Below are positions 3,004 to 9,035 of a stretch of DNA of 64,000 nt, piece after piece. Each line of letters starts with the position of its first letter. The stretch's first letter is position 1. This DNA comes from Anatilimnocola aggregata (GTDB lineage Bacteria > Planctomycetota > Planctomycetia > Pirellulales > Pirellulaceae): assembly GCF_007747655.1 (NCBI RefSeq), contig NZ_CP036274.1, positions 4,774,001 through 4,838,000 on the forward strand, in the 5' to 3' direction. Under the pieces are notes generated by a model. It was given only the letters and a program-made list of their open reading frames with translations, made no database searches and had not been told where the DNA came from. The position numbers and the translations under genes were made by a program.

Positions 3004-3597
3004 ATGATTCTGCTGATCGATAACTACGACTCCTTCACCTACAACCTCGTGCAGCGGTTGGGGGAAATTGATGCATCGCTCGATATTCAAGTCCATCGCA
3101 ACGACCAGATCACCTGCGACGAGATCGAGAAGTTGAAGCCGACACACTTGATTGTTTCGCCAGGTCCCTGCACGCCGACCGAGGCCGGTATTTCGGTCGA
3201 GTGCATTCAGCGGTTTATGGGAAAATTGCCGCTGCTCGGCGTATGCCTGGGGCATCAATCGATTGGGCAGGCGACCGGCGGCCTGATTGTGCGGGCTAAA
3301 CGGCTGATGCACGGCAAGACCGATCAGATTTATCACGATGGGGTGGGTCTGTTCGAAGGGCTGCCAAACCCGGTAACGGCGACCCGTTATCACAGCCTGG
3401 TGATTCGTCCCGATACGCTGAATCCTGATTTCATTGTTTCTGCCTGGGCCGATGCTCCCGATGGTTCGCGGGAGATCATGGCCATTCGGCATAAAACGAT
3501 GCCACTGGTCGGTGTGCAGTTTCATCCCGAGAGCTTCTTGACCGAATACGGCCACCAGATGCTGCGGCAATTCCTGACGATGCAGGTCAAGCGATGA
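3004..3597 (+). CDS. Anthranilate/aminodeoxychorismate synthase glutamine amidotransferase subunit
   Basis: Class I glutamine amidotransferase of the TrpG/PabA type, 197 residues, the normal length. It supplies ammonia from glutamine to a chorismate-using partner (TrpE or PabB). The N-terminus ILLIDNYDSFTYNLVQ is the family signature, the nucleophile elbow is GVCLGHQ and the catalytic His-Glu pair is in VQFHPES. TrpG and PabA cannot be separated from sequence alone, and one protein often serves both pathways. No trpE or pabB is present in the window. The stop overlaps the moeA start by four bases (ATGA), so the two are translationally coupled although their pathways are not obviously linked. 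Confidence 0.93.
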   Translation: MILLIDNYDSFTYNLVQRLGEIDASLDIQVHRNDQITCDEIEKLKPTHLIVSPGPCTPTEAGISVECIQRFMGKLPLLGVCLGHQSIGQATGGLIVRAKRLMHGKTDQIYHDGVGLFEGLPNPVTATRYHSLVIRPDTLNPDFIVSAWADAPDGSREIMAIRHKTMPLVGVQFHPESFLTEYGHQMLRQFLTMQVKR

Positions 3598-4823
3598 TCA
3601 GTGTCGAACAGGCCTTGGAACTGGTGCTGCAACATGCGGGCAAGCTGCAGCGCTGCCGGCAGGTGAATATCGAGGCAGCCTTGGGCTGCATCCTGGCCGA
3701 AGATGTGGTGAGTGATGTTGATTCGCCACCGCACGATAAGTCGATCGTCGATGGCTATGCAATTCATGAAGGGGATTTGAGCGGCGAGAACCAGTTGCAG
3801 ATCATCGAGCACATTGTCGCCGGTCTCGTGCCGTCTCGTTCGTTAGAAAAAGGCCTTGCCACTCAGATTATGACCGGCGCGCCCATTCCCACTGGCACTG
3901 CTGCAGTGGTAATGGTGGAAAAGACGAGCACTCAAAACAAGGGAGATCTGGAGTTCTTGTCTCTCACCGAGCGGAGCATTCGTCCTGGGCAGAACATTGT
4001 GCGTCGCGGGCAGTCGATGAAGCTCGGCGACGTAGTGCTGCGGCAAGGAACGCTGCTGCGGGCGATTGAGATTGGGCTGCTCGCCGAAGTGGGGCGAGAA
4101 AGTGTGTGGACACTCATCGATCCAGCGGTTGCGATTCTTCCCACCGGCGACGAAATTGTTCCACATACGGAGAAGCCACCGCCGGGAAAGATTCGCAACA
4201 GCAACAGCAGTTTGCTGGCCAATCTGGTTATGCAAGCCGGTGGTCAGCCGGCAGAGAGCGACATCGTTCCCGATCATGCAGAAACACTACTCCAGGCGAT
4301 TGAAGAGAATCTCGATTGCGATGCGATCTTGCTCTCGGGTGGCGTATCGGCTGGCGTACACGACTTGGTTCCAGCGGCCCTGGCCAAGGCTGGCGTAAAG
4401 CAGGTTTTTCATCACGTGAATTTGAAGCCAGGTAAGCCACTCTGGTTTGGCTTCTTCGATCGGGGCGACGATCGTCCCCCCTGTCTGGTATTCGGACTGC
4501 CGGGAAACCCGGTCAGCGGGCTGGTCTGCTTCGAGCTATTTGTGCGACCCGCCCTGCAGAAGATGCGGTGGATGAAGCCGCGTGGACTGCCTATTCAGCG
4601 GGCAACATTAACGGTGGAACATAAGCACCGGGGCGATCGCCCCTCCTATTGGCCCGCTGAATACGACTCCGATTCTGGGCAGATCTTGCCGTTGTCGTGG
4701 CAAGGGTCGGGCGACTTGAGGTCGCTGACGGGAGCCAATGCTCTGGCCTATTTTCCTGGCGGCGATCGGGTTTGGCCAGTCGACGAAGAGGTGACTGTCT
4801 ACCTACTGCCTGCCAGTTCGTAA
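3594..4823 (+). CDS. moeA: Molybdopterin molybdotransferase MoeA
   Basis: The enzyme inserts molybdate into adenylylated molybdopterin in the last step of molybdenum cofactor synthesis, in the cytoplasm. The 409-residue protein has the expected MoeA order: an N-terminal part with DSPPHDKSIVDGYAI, a middle beta domain with IMTGAPIPTGTAAVVMVE, the MogA-like domain with ILPTGDEIV and LLSGGVSAGVHD, then KPGKPLWFG and FGLPGNPVSG, and a C-terminal beta domain. All expected motifs are intact. Its start overlaps the stop of the upstream amidotransferase gene in an ATGA arrangement. No other molybdenum cofactor genes are nearby. Confidence 0.95.
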   Translation: MISVEQALELVLQHAGKLQRCRQVNIEAALGCILAEDVVSDVDSPPHDKSIVDGYAIHEGDLSGENQLQIIEHIVAGLVPSRSLEKGLATQIMTGAPIPTGTAAVVMVEKTSTQNKGDLEFLSLTERSIRPGQNIVRRGQSMKLGDVVLRQGTLLRAIEIGLLAEVGRESVWTLIDPAVAILPTGDEIVPHTEKPPPGKIRNSNSSLLANLVMQAGGQPAESDIVPDHAETLLQAIEENLDCDAILLSGGVSAGVHDLVPAALAKAGVKQVFHHVNLKPGKPLWFGFFDRGDDRPPCLVFGLPGNPVSGLVCFELFVRPALQKMRWMKPRGLPIQRATLTVEHKHRGDRPSYWPAEYDSDSGQILPLSWQGSGDLRSLTGANALAYFPGGDRVWPVDEEVTVYLLPASS

Positions 4824-4999
4824 CTCAAGTGGCAATTTCGTGCCATTCATGAAAGTCGACCGTTGACATCGGTCCGCCAGTACTTAACATAACGGGTGCT
4901 GGTTTTATCCCCCCTTGTGCGACCCTCCCCGCCTTGCACCCAACCAGCCTGCACTCTCGCCGATTGCTGCCCTCCGAAATTCTGCCCGCCAAACCCGCC

Positions 5000-5383
5000 G
5001 TGAAACTTCGCTTAATCAGCCAGGATCCCCTGGCATCGCCGCGTGAGATCGTGCTCGAACACTTCCCCGCTGATATCGGTCGGGGAGTGGATGTGTCGCT
5101 TCGCATCGACGACCGTTGGATCAGCCGGCGACACTGTCAGCTGAACATCGAAGGTGATGACCTGGTCGTCCGTGATCTTGGTTCGCGTCACGGCACCTAC
5201 GTCAATGGTCAGGCAATCGAGCAGGTCTGCTTGCAGCCAGGCAACGAACTCTGCTTGGGGCTGAGTCACTTCGTCGTCGATCTGCTCCGCGAAGAATCGC
5301 TTGTCCCTGCCGGCCATGACTCCGGCGAACTCGACCTGCCCATACGGGGCAACGGCCGCCGCGTGATGGCAATGGCCTATTAG
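5000..5383 (+). CDS. FHA domain protein
   Basis: A single forkhead-associated domain, a phosphothreonine-peptide-binding module, fills the 127-residue product. The hallmarks are IGRGVD (strand with Gly-Arg), the SRRHC phosphate-contact motif and GSRHGTYVNG. I chose the GTG at 5000 because the product then begins directly with the first FHA strand (KLRLISQDP). An in-frame ATG at 4934 would add 22 residues that do not look like domain sequence. The gene converges on the MotA/ExbB-like module, whose last stop is at 5396. The binding partner is unknown; a kinase-linked role is family knowledge only. Confidence 0.82.
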   Translation: MKLRLISQDPLASPREIVLEHFPADIGRGVDVSLRIDDRWISRRHCQLNIEGDDLVVRDLGSRHGTYVNGQAIEQVCLQPGNELCLGLSHFVVDLLREESLVPAGHDSGELDLPIRGNGRRVMAMAY

Positions 5384-5395
5384 AGGTTTGGTCGT

Positions 5396-6505
5396 CTAAT
5401 CGACCGTATCGGTCGGCCCCATGGGCAATGCCGGTTTCGCAGGTGCATTCGGATCGGGCTTAGGCGGAGGGGGCTGACCTTCGCAGGGAACTGTCATTCC
5501 CAGGCTCTCTCTCCAGGTGTAGTCGACCGTATAGGGTTCCCAGCCCGCGAGGACTCCCATTTCGTCGCACACACTCCGAGCAGCCACATAGGCATCGAAG
5601 CTGTCGTTCCACACGAGAAAGCGGATATAGAACTTGTCACCATGCTTGGTCTGTAAAGATTTGAGACCGCGGCGGAGATTGGAACTGGCGGCTGTTGCCT
5701 GCTTGGGGGATTCGCCTCCTGTCGGTTTCAACTCGAAGACGATGTACAGATTGAAATTGACCACGGCCAATTGGACGCGAAAGTTGGCGTCAAACACGCG
5801 GGCGTTCTTGTTGAAGGTCTGAACGAGCTTCTCGCAATCGATCTTTCCATCCTTGGTTTTCATCGCGGGCTGTCGCAACAGAAGCTCCACCTGCTTTTTG
5901 CAGCGGTCGCGAATCTCGGTGGGGAGGAAGGGGACAATCTGGCCATCGCGCACGATGATTCGGTATTGAGTCGCGCCAGCGGGAGCATCGCGAGGATTCG
6001 GCAAGCTGACAATCTTGGCCGGCGGCGCTGCAACGACTTCGGTCTTGTCGAGGAGAGCTTTCAAACGCGCAAGTTCTTCTTCGGTAGCCACCAATTTGGT
6101 GGCAAGCTCTTTGGACTTTTTCTCGTTCTCGTCGACCTTCGTTTCGGTCTCTTTGAGCTTTTCGGCGGGGACGATTTCCGCTGGCTTTTGCTTTTTCAAG
6201 GCTTCTATCTGGGCGAGGAGCACACCGAAGTTATCCGATGGTTCCGTGGTGGTAACAGTGGGCAGCTTGCTGGCCAACTGTTCGCGCAGCTTTCGCAGTT
6301 GTTCTGCCTGTTGCTGGGCCTTGGCGAGATCGGCGGCCGAAACGTTGAGCTGTGAGGGATCGAGATCCAGAATTCGCTGCACGGCACTTTGGACGTTCAG
6401 TGTGGTGAGCATGAGCACCATCACCAGCACCCCCACCACATTGGTGAGTGTGTCGAGAAGTGAATCGAGATTCATGCCGGCCTCGCCACCCTTGCGTCTT
6501 GCCAT
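5396..6505 (-). CDS. Single-span stator-like B subunit, Asp-containing (MotB/TolR/ExbD-like)
   Basis: The 369-residue protein has a short basic N-terminus (MARRKGGEAG), one membrane span at about residues 16-36 with Asp18 at its start (LLDTLTNVVGVLVMVLML), a coiled-coil region at about 60-150 rich in Lys, Glu and Gln, and a globular C-terminal domain from about 165 with RIIVRDGQIVPFLPTE. The Asp near the start of the span matches the position of the protonatable Asp of ExbD/TolR/MotB. No OmpA-type peptidoglycan-binding motif is visible. It is the last gene of a three-gene operon, six bases after the paralogous 285-residue subunit. Assignment to this superfamily is inference from topology and the Asp; the role is unknown. 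Confidence 0.7.
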   Translation of the reverse strand: MARRKGGEAGMNLDSLLDTLTNVVGVLVMVLMLTTLNVQSAVQRILDLDPSQLNVSAADLAKAQQQAEQLRKLREQLASKLPTVTTTEPSDNFGVLLAQIEALKKQKPAEIVPAEKLKETETKVDENEKKSKELATKLVATEEELARLKALLDKTEVVAAPPAKIVSLPNPRDAPAGATQYRIIVRDGQIVPFLPTEIRDRCKKQVELLLRQPAMKTKDGKIDCEKLVQTFNKNARVFDANFRVQLAVVNFNLYIVFELKPTGGESPKQATAASSNLRRGLKSLQTKHGDKFYIRFLVWNDSFDAYVAARSVCDEMGVLAGWEPYTVDYTWRESLGMTVPCEGQPPPPKPDPNAPAKPALPMGPTDTVD

Positions 6506-6511
6506 GATGCT

Positions 6512-7369
6512 TCACTTTCCTTGAAACAGGGTGAGGTCAAGCTTGCCTTGCGAACCGATGGCCAACTTGCCGTTGGTAACCGCCCGGTTGCGAGCGACAC
6601 TGCGGGCAGAGTTATACGTTGCGACCCCGTCCGGACGAATTAAGAATACCACGGTCGACTTGGCATCGGCCTTGACCTTGTCGAGCAACTTGATGAATTC
6701 GGCGTGACCACCCATTTGCGCCTTGGGGATGCGCAGCGGTTGCGGGCGGTCGTGCAGAACAATGCTCGCTGCCGCACATTCGACAAACACCGGCTTCAAG
6801 TCGGAGCCCGTCCCGCTGGGTTGGATTTGCACCTGCGCCTCTGCTGGCGGGGCTTTGATCTTGGCCAGTTGCTCCTGAAGCTTGGCCAATTGTTCGAGCA
6901 ATGGCTTCAAGCGCTCGTCCAGTTCTTTGTTTTCTTTTTGCAATTGTTCGAGGCGAATGATCTTGGCTGCCAGTTCGATCTGACGTTGACTCGCAGTCTC
7001 TTGGTTCGCTTTGGTGGTTGCCTGTAGTTCTACTAGTTCCTTTTTCGCTGCGGCAATATTCTCGGCGACAATCGTAGCTTCCTGCTGCGCTGATTGCAGC
7101 TGAGCAATTTTCGCTTGCAAAGCCTTGAGCGCTTCTTGATCCAACTTGGCCTGATCGCGGAGCGTCTTGTACTGCGTCGCGCGGGCTTTGGCTTCCTCCG
7201 CAGCTTGGGCGGCAGCGGCAGCATCGGCCTGGGCCTGGGGATTGTCCTTCCCAATTTGCCCAAGCGTGACGGCGGTAATCATCAGCACCAGAATTCCGAT
7301 CACTGCAGCGAGAATGCTGAGGAACGGAAACAGGCTGACAGCGTCGTCGATATTTGCCTTTTTTGCCAT
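6512..7369 (-). CDS. Single-span stator-like B subunit, Asp replaced by Ser
   Basis: The 285-residue product has the same plan as its downstream neighbour: basic N-terminus, one membrane span (PFLSILAAVIGILVLMITAV, about residues 15-36), a long coiled coil (about 45-180) and a small C-terminal domain with VFLIRPDGVATYNSARSVA. Aligned without gaps from the first Met, both proteins have Gly25, Leu27 and Val28, but the neighbour's Asp18 is Ser18 here. This suggests a non-protonatable paralog. It lies between the MotA/ExbB-like gene (50-base gap) and the Asp-containing paralog (six-base gap), so the three probably form one complex. It could alternatively be only a coiled-coil membrane anchor. Confidence 0.65.
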   Translation of the reverse strand: MAKKANIDDAVSLFPFLSILAAVIGILVLMITAVTLGQIGKDNPQAQADAAAAAQAAEEAKARATQYKTLRDQAKLDQEALKALQAKIAQLQSAQQEATIVAENIAAAKKELVELQATTKANQETASQRQIELAAKIIRLEQLQKENKELDERLKPLLEQLAKLQEQLAKIKAPPAEAQVQIQPSGTGSDLKPVFVECAAASIVLHDRPQPLRIPKAQMGGHAEFIKLLDKVKADAKSTVVFLIRPDGVATYNSARSVARNRAVTNGKLAIGSQGKLDLTLFQGK

Positions 7370-7418
7370 GATCTAGATCAGAAGCGGAGCTGCGAACGAG
7401 TGACAACTTGGGGCGAAC

Positions 7419-9035
7419 TCACCGTCGGCTAAACCACCCCTTCTTGGCTGGATGCTGCACCTGAATCACGACTTGCTTGCCGTTAAGTTGACTCAACGTG
7501 TCGTTCAAGTTGAGGACGGCCTGCTCCAGAAGTCCCATCTGCTCTTCCAGCATCTGTGTCGATTGTTGGACGACGGCCGTGACTTGCTGTTGACCGCTGG
7601 TCACTGCCGCTGTCTGTTGTTCGGCCGCACGGGTGGCCCAGTTTGCCTGATCTTGCTGGGCCTGGCTGAGGTTCTGCGTAACTGCTGCGATTTGCGTGGT
7701 CAGTTCACTCAGCGAGAGGACCGCCGTGTTGATCTCTCCCAAGCGTTCGGAATGCTGCAATTGCACCCCTTCCTGCATGTGAGTCCAACCCTGAGAAATC
7801 TCCGCCGTCAGTTCTTTACCGATTTCTCGCAGGCGCGCCGTCCACGCCCGCAGTTCTGCCTGATGCGGCACTAGCGCGGCATTGATTGCCTTTTGTAACG
7901 TCGCATCGCTCGATGTCACGGGCGCGCCGGCATCTTCATCGATCAGTCGCTTCAAGAGATTTTCGTTGCAGTAGTCTTCCACCCAGTTCAGCAAGTCTTC
8001 TTCGGCCTTCTGCAAGGAACTGGCTGGAAACTTGAGCAGCAGGCTCATGATCAACGCGACGAGCGTCGTATCGAACGCCACACCAAGACCACCCGTAATC
8101 GCACCGAGTGACTTCTTGATGCTCTCTACGTCGGAGGCTGCCTCTAAGCTGCCGGAGAGATTACCCACCGCATCGCCCAACCCTTGGACGGTACCAATGA
8201 AGCCCAGAATGGGAATTGCCCAGATGAACACATTCAGTAGCGAATAACTCGAGCTGACCGCGTTGTTATCGAGTTCCGCTTGCGACGAAAGCATTGTCGA
8301 AACTTCCGACGAACTCCCTCGTACGCTGTAGTGCTCTAAACCGCGCAACACGCGACGCGCCAAAAAACTGGCACCGGTATCAACCGGCAAGCTACGCACG
8401 TTCTCGCCAAAAGCGTGGACGTTCTGCCGCGAGATTTCTTTACCGATACTTTCGGGCAGCAAGTCGAAGAGCATCGACTCTCGCTGTCTGTAGAGCTTGC
8501 GCGACTTGAAGATCAAGATTGCGACGGCCCAGAACATCAGGAAAGCTTCGGCGACGGTGACCCAACCGCGATCGAAAAACAGATCGCGAAAATACATTTG
8601 CGGCAGCGGGGCCAGAATCGCGTAGAACGTCACCGTGAACAGCAGGCCAATGGCGGCCGTCCAAATCAGGCTGACATTCGTGCCGTCATCGTTGCTGGCG
8701 TGCGTTGTCTCTTTCGTCTTTGCCTTCGCTGTTTTCTTGCTCCCTGCGACAACAGGAGGCGTGGGTGCAGCCGCCGCCGGAGTGCCGAGGGAAGGGACAG
8801 CGGAAGTGGCTGCGACGCGAATTGGATTGGTAGTAGCTGGCGCAGGGCTGCCCCCCAAGGTGTTCAAATCGAGCGATGCCAGATCGAGAGGAGCCAGGGG
8901 ATCTGGCTCGACGGGTGCAGGCTGCGGCACCTTTACCTGGTGCTTGCAGTACGGACAACGAGCGTTCCGTCCGGCAAGCTCTTCTTTCACGCGGAGGCTT
9001 TTGCTGCAGTGGGGACAAGCGAAGTTGAAATACAT
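7419..9035 (-). CDS. MotA/TolQ/ExbB proton channel family protein with N-terminal zinc ribbon
   Basis: From the start chosen here (538 residues) the protein opens with MYFNFACPHC and a second CPYC pair, a four-cysteine zinc ribbon of the MJ0042 type. A Pro/Ala/Thr-rich linker follows, then membrane spans (VSLIWTAAIGLLFTVTFYAI, AFLMFWAVAILIF, IWAIPILGFIGTVQGLG, VAFDTTLVALIMSLLL) and a long Gln/Ala coiled-coil tail ending KKGWFSRR. IPILGFIGTVQGL matches the conserved third span of TolQ/ExbB/MotA. An upstream in-frame ATG at 9095 would add 20 residues before the ribbon and seems less likely. It heads the operon with the two B-type subunits. Ion flow through the complex is inferred from family; the driven process is unknown. 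Confidence 0.85.
   Translation of the reverse strand: MYFNFACPHCSKSLRVKEELAGRNARCPYCKHQVKVPQPAPVEPDPLAPLDLASLDLNTLGGSPAPATTNPIRVAATSAVPSLGTPAAAAPTPPVVAGSKKTAKAKTKETTHASNDDGTNVSLIWTAAIGLLFTVTFYAILAPLPQMYFRDLFFDRGWVTVAEAFLMFWAVAILIFKSRKLYRQRESMLFDLLPESIGKEISRQNVHAFGENVRSLPVDTGASFLARRVLRGLEHYSVRGSSSEVSTMLSSQAELDNNAVSSSYSLLNVFIWAIPILGFIGTVQGLGDAVGNLSGSLEAASDVESIKKSLGAITGGLGVAFDTTLVALIMSLLLKFPASSLQKAEEDLLNWVEDYCNENLLKRLIDEDAGAPVTSSDATLQKAINAALVPHQAELRAWTARLREIGKELTAEISQGWTHMQEGVQLQHSERLGEINTAVLSLSELTTQIAAVTQNLSQAQQDQANWATRAAEQQTAAVTSGQQQVTAVVQQSTQMLEEQMGLLEQAVLNLNDTLSQLNGKQVVIQVQHPAKKGWFSRR

Follow-up and report, generated by a model that had tools for sequence, protein, structure and literature searches.

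Published models of 5:2 ion-driven motors (MotA5MotB2, ExbB5ExbD2) rest on two ion sites, according to the portions of the papers cited here, to which all our statements about them refer. Steps of 36 degrees are described as two aspartates (Asp) exchange protons (PMC9389320; PMC10659934; PMC12905483); in PMC10659934 the assumption is that no rotation occurs unless both Asp are protonated, and PMC12905483 gives a model with protonation exchange between the two and calls the Asp absolutely required. Here we describe a three-gene cassette, A-B1-B2, at 5396-9035 of a 64,000-nucleotide stretch of Anatilimnocola aggregata (contig NZ_CP036274.1, positions 4,774,001 to 4,838,000; the window, whose first letter is position 1). 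Its two B subunits are paralogues that carry Ser (B1) and Asp (B2) at the ion-coupling position, and one Asp per pair was found in 46 of 58 complete pairs. We consider it probable (roughly 0.6) that the cassette encodes a 5:2-type ion-driven motor whose axle helices come from two genes, with one working carboxylate.

The closest gene layout is that of AglR-AglQ-AglS of Myxococcus gliding, with one A and two B genes per cluster, but AglQ and AglS are PF02472 proteins (PMC3169522) and Asp is predicted in both (PMC9389320), whereas B1 carries Ser18. A preliminary description of the window had claimed that known stators use identical or all-Asp B subunits, and the all-Asp part agrees with this prediction and with the requirement named in PMC12905483. 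ExbB-ExbD and TolQ-TolR resemble the cassette in the channel domain of A and, for the B subunits, in the single span, in the Pro that B1 has at -3 and in a periplasmic domain that is putatively TolR/ExbD-like. They differ in that the cassette has two unlike B genes, one of them without Asp, and a long helical stretch between span and domain, and that window B1 and B2 have no PF02472 match. The core and the probable cytoplasmic helical tail of A resemble ZorA, but ZorB is encoded by a single gene, and it has a required Asp as well as a peptidoglycan-binding domain (PMC11890865), which was not found here. A heterologous tolR-like pair next to a tolQ-like gene, with a vWA transducer, is known from PVC (Planctomycetota-Verrucomicrobiota-Chlamydiota) bacteria (PMC12204202); that system differs by TPR and vWA genes beside the pair and by axle-acting vWA proteins that each carry Asp. 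Section 8 of PMC12204202 makes no mention of a missing Asp. TPR and vWA were not found among the flanking genes scanned with Pfam here, a minority of flanks, and overlap of loci with PMC12204202 is possible. No report of one-Asp B pairs was found in the literature searched, which left subscription journals mostly uncovered, and the ExbD1/ExbD2 literature, at the level of listings, held nothing on them. The best reading is that the cassette would work like ExbBD, TolQR and MotAB; by the features tested, it is not a member of PF02472, MotB or Zorya.

Register, key residues and history of the B subunits

The three open reading frames (ORFs) were confirmed, in the order A, B1, B2 along the minus strand, with 49 bases between A and B1 and 6 bases between B1 and B2. 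A carries PF01618, and the observation of a three-gene MotA/ExbB-like module is correct. The start of A at 9035 agrees with its homologues, whose N-terminus is MYF or MYW followed by the first CxxC. The source genome comprises 9.0 Mb on one contig. The core features are:

7419..9035, minus strand: A subunit, 538 amino acids; PF01618, PADLOC ZorA2 profile over residues 265-499, homologues aligned
6512..7369, minus strand: B1 subunit, 285 amino acids; a single membrane span followed by a long helical stretch and a putative TolR/ExbD-like domain at the C-terminus; coupling position without Asp
7316..7318, minus strand: codon of B1 Ser18, at the place of the axle Asp
5396..6505, minus strand: B2 subunit, 369 amino acids; a single membrane span that contains Asp18, then a helical stretch, a putative TolR/ExbD-like domain in the C-terminal part and a proline-rich tail
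6452..6454, minus strand: codon of B2 Asp18, the predicted ion-binding carboxylate

The N-terminus of B1 is MAKKANIDDAVSLFPFLSILAAVIGILV and that of B2 is MARRKGGEAGMNLDSLLDTLTNVVGVLV; Gly25, Leu27 and Val28 are common to both, and at residue 18 B1 has Ser where B2 has Asp, just as first described. In a profile-profile alignment (hhalign) of 46 B1 against 40 B2 proteins, the match extended over the full length (probability 99.5, E 5e-23), and Ser18 of B1 lay opposite Asp18 of B2 in a gap-free span. B1 and B2 are full-length paralogues in the same register, which holds without matching the first Met of the two proteins. Sister types gave the same picture. The Asp-bearing B1 proteins of the FQDI type (n = 8) aligned with the B1 profile at E 2e-25 with their Asp on Ser18, TPFLD of B1 in locus L187 aligned on FPFLS, and a short-B profile (n = 7) matched B1 (E 1e-18) and B2 (E 7e-18) with the register unchanged. 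A shift of the spans among many homologues, which had been raised as a danger to the comparison, was not seen in these sets: the spans stay aligned and Asp falls on Ser18.

Within the B1 span, S12, L13, F14, P15, F16, L20 and G25 are invariant in 46 proteins. The Pro lies at -3 from the key position (F-P-F-L-S), and T-P-x-x-D is found in 7 of the 11 ExbD proteins of the same genome. At the other end of the partner protein, B2 terminates in I/V/L-Asp in 39 of 40 aligned rows, from Planctomycetota to Myxococcota; the remaining row (L058) ends at a contig edge. Another conserved tail, GS-x-x-G-[ST]-[RKQ]-S-x-x-[QE], was seen in B2 of the long-B1 type (L039, L040, L043, L046, L194, L196, L200, L201, L206, L208). 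The short-B relatives (L186-L189, L228-L237) are too short for a long coil; their B1 residue is S, C, A, N or D, and the B2 Asp is kept.

The key residues were read in 58 complete B1/B2 pairs, the window included, from loci found with the B2 profile or with B1 or B2 as whole proteins, and not via the B1 residue. The pairs were S/D (24), A/D (12), N/D (6), C/D (2), T/D (1), D/D (12) and D/G (1), which gives one Asp in 46 pairs, two in 12 and none in 0, with Asp in B2 in 57 of 58. Thus B1 varies among the neutral residues S, A, T, C and N, or has Asp, and B2 has Asp except for one Gly. The D/S pair, whose conservation was to be checked, is conserved as regards the single Asp, and its partner may also be Ala, Thr, Cys or Asn; Asp in both, named beforehand as contrary to the proposal, occurs as an exception (12/58, L177 and L181 among them), and Asp in neither does not occur among the 58. 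The reverse case of B1 Asp and B2 Gly was read at one locus of one genome (L190, 3805-5534).

The key column was left unscored or read by eye, with 48 pairs in the main table and ten more; L187 and L189 were entered by hand, B1 of L186 was taken from the hhalign reading, and L228-L237 were read by eye. The 58 rows are not independent, as L192/L051, L209/L068 and L212/L103 repeat cassettes of the pattern scan and L231 is close to L189. Outside the 58 stand L174, L195, L197, L203, L204, L205, L207, L215 and L236 (contig ends or no readable partner), as well as L031-L036 (B2 unlinked; B1 Ser, B2 Asp), L041, L042, L047 and L048. The profile used for finding B2 was built from Asp-bearing rows. In the pattern-scan loci, B2 has Asp in 71/71 where B2 was found; one scan script demanded Asp when choosing B2, and a listing without that demand gives B2 in the same 71 loci. 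Because the scan pattern demanded Ser or Ala in B1, its 79 Ser and 1 Ala of 80 are not evidence and were kept out of the 58. In the PF02472 ExbD proteins of the same genome, Asp is present in 11/11, three adjacent pairs included, so loss of Asp is no general habit of this genome.

When 53 A subunits were placed in a tree, those of the long-B1 type (B1 with Ala or Thr) formed their own branch (100/100) and those of the FQDI type (Asp/Asp plus the single D/G) another (100/100); no single branch set the type of the window apart. This tree requires at least two switches in B1 between Asp and another residue, and a wider quick tree of 98 rows requires three. Judged from the sequences, the asymmetry of B1 and B2 is old, repeated and not absolute.

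Whole-protein searches found matches in at least 14 of 199 genomes of the phylum for B1 and at least 11 of 199 for B2, and wider searches gave genomes with candidates in at least 27/240, 24/246 and 13/188. These counts are lower bounds on candidates that passed a loose first look, the wide searches scoring no more than 8 to 12 per genome, and some of the 14 B1 matches span the helical part only, for example in G018 and G081, where there is no trio. A pattern scan with one genome per species gave 523 pattern matches and 387 B1 relatives. The best 80 of the 387 came from records titled Planctomycetota, Verrucomicrobiota/Opitutia, Kiritimatiellae, Lentisphaerae and Myxococcota/Deltaproteobacteria, mostly metagenome-assembled genomes. 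The trio stood in the order A-B1-B2 on a single strand in 68 of these 80 loci, across several phyla, and also in most loci from the other searches, so the gene order, whose conservation was to be checked, is conserved. B1 adjoins A in nearly all loci read. B2 was missing in 9 of the 80 loci, namely L053, L075 and L097 at contig ends and, away from such ends, L069, L070, L073, L074 and L077 (a Gimesia-like group) and L112. A was missing in two, L079 (contig start) and L100 (not at an end), and L116 has an A-like ORF on the opposite strand. A second A-B1-B2 cassette, of the long-B1 type with Ala/Asp, is present in the same genome at about 3.226 Mb (L208; C1:3223000-3236000, 3324-7626).

Domains and family membership

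Further features of the three genes are:

8946..9017, minus strand: MJ0042-like zinc ribbon of A with C7, C10, C27 and C30; from the sequence, TIGR02098 below cut-off
8064..8192, minus strand: A residues 282-324 with the putative pore threonines T282 (GFIGTV) and T324 (AFDTT); alignment of 39 A proteins
6854..7240, minus strand: B1 residues 44-172, helical stretch broken at 123-126; AlphaFold2 (AF2) model
5399..5404, minus strand: final two codons of B2, Val-Asp; alignment of 40 B2 proteins

The A subunit is a member of the PF01618 (MotA/TolQ/ExbB channel domain) motor superfamily: the window protein matched at E 9.7e-9 (35.6 bits against a cut-off of 22.9), and all 39 aligned A proteins matched at E <= 0.001. 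Judged by eye, A probably has four membrane spans, and its C-terminal tail is probably helical. The N-terminal zinc ribbon matched TIGR02098 (NCBIfam) at E 0.0056, under that model's own cut-off, and 27 of 39 A proteins have the CxxC-CxxC pattern. T282 and T324 are invariant across the 39 A proteins, an alignment without the A proteins of the short-B type. In PomA, T158 and T186 are tied to PomB D24 and ion binding (PMC6677748), and from a reading of the motifs T282 and T324 appear to be their counterparts. Because these ion-binding threonines appear retained and are invariant in A, the pore looks active. In L177 and L181, where B1 has Asp inside the clade of the window, the fourth-span motif of A is AFDAT instead of AFDTT, as one shared event.

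The PADLOC ZorA2 profile, for which PADLOC gives no cut-off, matched residues 265-499 of window A at E 7e-8 and 37 of 39 A proteins at E <= 0.001. The NCBIfam ZorA model gave 14.2 bits on window A, far under its 100-bit cut-off; a sequence search of the PDB with A returned one ZorA row at E 4, and the A profile returned coils only. The likeness of the A tail to ZorA that had been pointed out is therefore retained as regards the ZorA2 profile and a probably helical tail, but the cassette is not Zorya, and B1 and B2 show no OmpA-like domain among the families listed for them. Neither B subunit had a ZorB match in Pfam or PADLOC.

AF2 monomer models of B1 and B2 (mean predicted local distance difference test 88.4 and 81, the N-terminus of B2 with low confidence) each show a single N-terminal span, long helical stretches and, at the C-terminus, a folded domain. 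Among non-helical structures, TolR and ExbD matched both C-terminal domains best (VIA Z 6.5-7.8). For B1, TolR 5by4 ranked first in Foldseek (probability 1.00, E 0.01) and reached a VIA Z of 7.8 with a root mean square deviation (rmsd) of 4.3 over 87 aligned residues; for B2, the top two VIA rows were TolR (Z 7.3, rmsd 4.2, 88 aligned) and ExbD (Z 6.9, rmsd 3.9, 89 aligned). Asp in the first part of the span, a trait of ExbD and TolR, is present in B2 (57/58), and B1 is neutral there in 45/58 (Ser18 in the window).

Sequence families gave less. PF02472 was not among the Pfam matches of window B1 and B2 at E <= 1 and matched 0/40 B2 proteins at E <= 0.01; for the other B1 rows 25 of 52 families were listed, and for the B2 rows all 22. 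NCBIfam ExbD_2 matched residues 9-95 of window B1 weakly (E 0.044, 14.2 of 123 bits). For B1 and B2 no OmpA-like family was found among the Pfam families listed and no peptidoglycan-binding domain reached a cut-off; the NCBIfam model PRK09039, titled peptidoglycan-binding protein, reached 15.6 and 12 of 305 bits (E 0.01 and 0.13) on their helical parts; the early remark that both lack such a domain holds for families above cut-off. Other matches of B1 and B2 in Pfam, NCBIfam and PADLOC were mostly to coiled coils (SMC, LmuB, JetC), and searches of PDB sequences gave helical proteins. Two MotB chains of the Campylobacter type came up with the B1 profile over span and helix (E 0.025 and 0.087), and none came up among the 60 matches listed for B2.

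The proposed motor and rival explanations

In the proposed 5:2 motor, five A subunits would form a ring and one B1 and one B2 helix would pass through its pore, a pairing that we infer. B1 is placed at the axle position because Asp occurs in B1 of the sister types and of L177 and L181. The ion, presumably H+ (or Na+), would bind only B2 Asp18, facing the threonine ring of A (T282, T324), while B1 would fill the second axle place with a neutral residue at the key position. A neutral residue that varies beside a nearly fixed B2 Asp is expected if only one side is chemically needed. Because there would be a single carboxylate, two-site exchange of protons between Asp residues would be impossible, and 72-degree steps (five ions per turn), if the motor rotates, or rocking are therefore predicted. 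The asymmetric axle would pass force through the helical parts of B1 and B2 and their unlike TolR/ExbD-like domains to periplasmic partners, which might dock at the I/V/L-Asp end of B2. Most likely, the motor would do mechanical work on the envelope.

Several observations weigh against this proposal. Asp/Asp relatives indicate that two carboxylates are tolerated; L177 and L181, Asp/Asp and from the phylum of a genome titled Opitutales, have a nested place in the Ser/Asp clade (starred support), and a tree that joins them to the FQDI type was rejected (p-AU, approximately unbiased test, 0.005). Their nesting favours a regain of Asp in B1; the root of the tree is not fixed, and so neither is the direction of change. 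As for the pairing of B1 with B2, their span-to-domain distances are uncorrelated (Spearman -0.05; 77 loci with noisy markers), their total lengths are weakly correlated (0.23, p 0.016, uncorrected for kinship), and self-pairing of B2 is also conceivable. A distance of 664 to 1405 kb separates B2 from A-B1 in G048, G069 and G181, genomes of the same class of Planctomycetota (L031-L036), and co-translation is thus dispensable. In the AF2 model the helix of B1 is interrupted at 123-126, and its helical part resembles hairpins such as prefoldin, which makes the reach of the rods uncertain. Of the long coiled coils described at first, the helical stretches stand, and one straight periplasmic coil in B1 is not borne out by the model. 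The link to ExbD is also thin at several points: Foldseek found no clear match for B2, a VIA Z below 8 could be due to a common fold arrangement, and ordinary ExbD against B1 or B2 was not significant in direct hhalign comparisons. That link runs via the short-B relatives, whose profile matched ExbD weakly (E 0.0013, Asp on Asp) and three of whose proteins matched PF02472 below cut-off (E 0.0036, 0.016 and 0.2).

The asymmetric ion-driven machine envisaged at the outset is thus upheld in its gene order, one-Asp pair and register and qualified by the Asp/Asp exceptions, with the A5-B1-B2 heterodimer still a deduction. A stronger version is tentative and somewhat less probable than its negation: a natural family of single-carboxylate 5:2 motors with an obligate B1-B2 axle, ion binding by B2 only and a cycle beyond the two-site turnstile, in which loss of the second Asp was fixed early and partly reversed in Verrucomicrobiota. 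If this were true, one-site and two-site versions of the same machine would exist in nature. With a one-of-two-Asp family and its two-Asp relatives, the two-site question becomes testable by a single residue change in B1 or by natural comparison. The cassette would also bring in an unnamed envelope motor that Planctomycetota, Verrucomicrobiota and Myxococcota have in common.

The rival that survives best, though unlikely, is that two B2 subunits make up an ordinary Asp/Asp pair inside the A pentamer and B1 is a third component outside the ring, a force transmitter like TonB or TolA. These proteins dock outside the ring via one span with an SHLS motif (PMC12905483; PMC12204202, section 8), and the lack of Asp in B1 would suit such a role. 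The homology of B1 and B2 extends over the full length, span and C-terminal domain included, and this argues against it, as do the Asp in B1 of the sister types and of L177 and L181, the SHLS motif found in 0/46 B1 proteins and the retained Pro at -3.

It is improbable, more so than an outside B1, that B1 is a silenced or regulatory paralogue, such that B2/B2 motors run, B1/B2 motors are plugged and the ratio of the two sets activity. A neutral subunit might halt a two-site motor (we infer this; a literature search on dominance of MotB D32N found no paper), and the key residue does drift among neutral residues. Against this, B1 sits next to A in nearly all of the loci read and its span is strongly conserved, and a pure inhibitor is not needed in every operon. 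Slightly less probable again are two homodimer motors with a common ring protein, a structural A5B1_2 without ion binding and an A5B2_2: there are two B genes per A, and AglRQ and AglRS could in theory be separate channels (PMC9389320), but a homodimer without any Asp would not be expected to run, and B1 is nevertheless present in each trio. A phage defence motor of the Zorya kind is very improbable in spite of the ZorA2 matches in 37/39 A proteins and the probable helical tail of A, given the 14.2 of 100 bits for NCBIfam ZorA, no OmpA-like domain among the B1/B2 families listed and no neighbour at a fixed place across phyla.

Genes around the cassette

A small FHA-domain gene (PF00498) at 4934-5383 of the window is convergent with B2 and lies 12 bases from its end; Pfam assigned the four window neighbours to FHA, FtsK, MoeA and glutamine amidotransferase, where a Zorya system would have its effector genes ZorC/D/E. 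Clustering of flanking ORFs across loci revealed mostly synteny within lineages, and no neighbour held a fixed place across phyla. Two clusters do extend beyond one phylum, the GFO/IDH/MocA oxidoreductases with 24 loci and the PQQ/BamB-like beta-propellers with 16; because their distances and strands vary, we regard them as big families encountered by chance. In five loci without a nearby B2 (L031-L036 and L069-L077, one family of Planctomycetota), the gene for a PQQ/BamB-like propeller is 70-167 bases away from B1. Genes for a PEGA-domain protein and a UvrD-like helicase repeatedly flank the cassette in Myxococcota (L125, 6609-7832 and 10982-13069, and equivalents).

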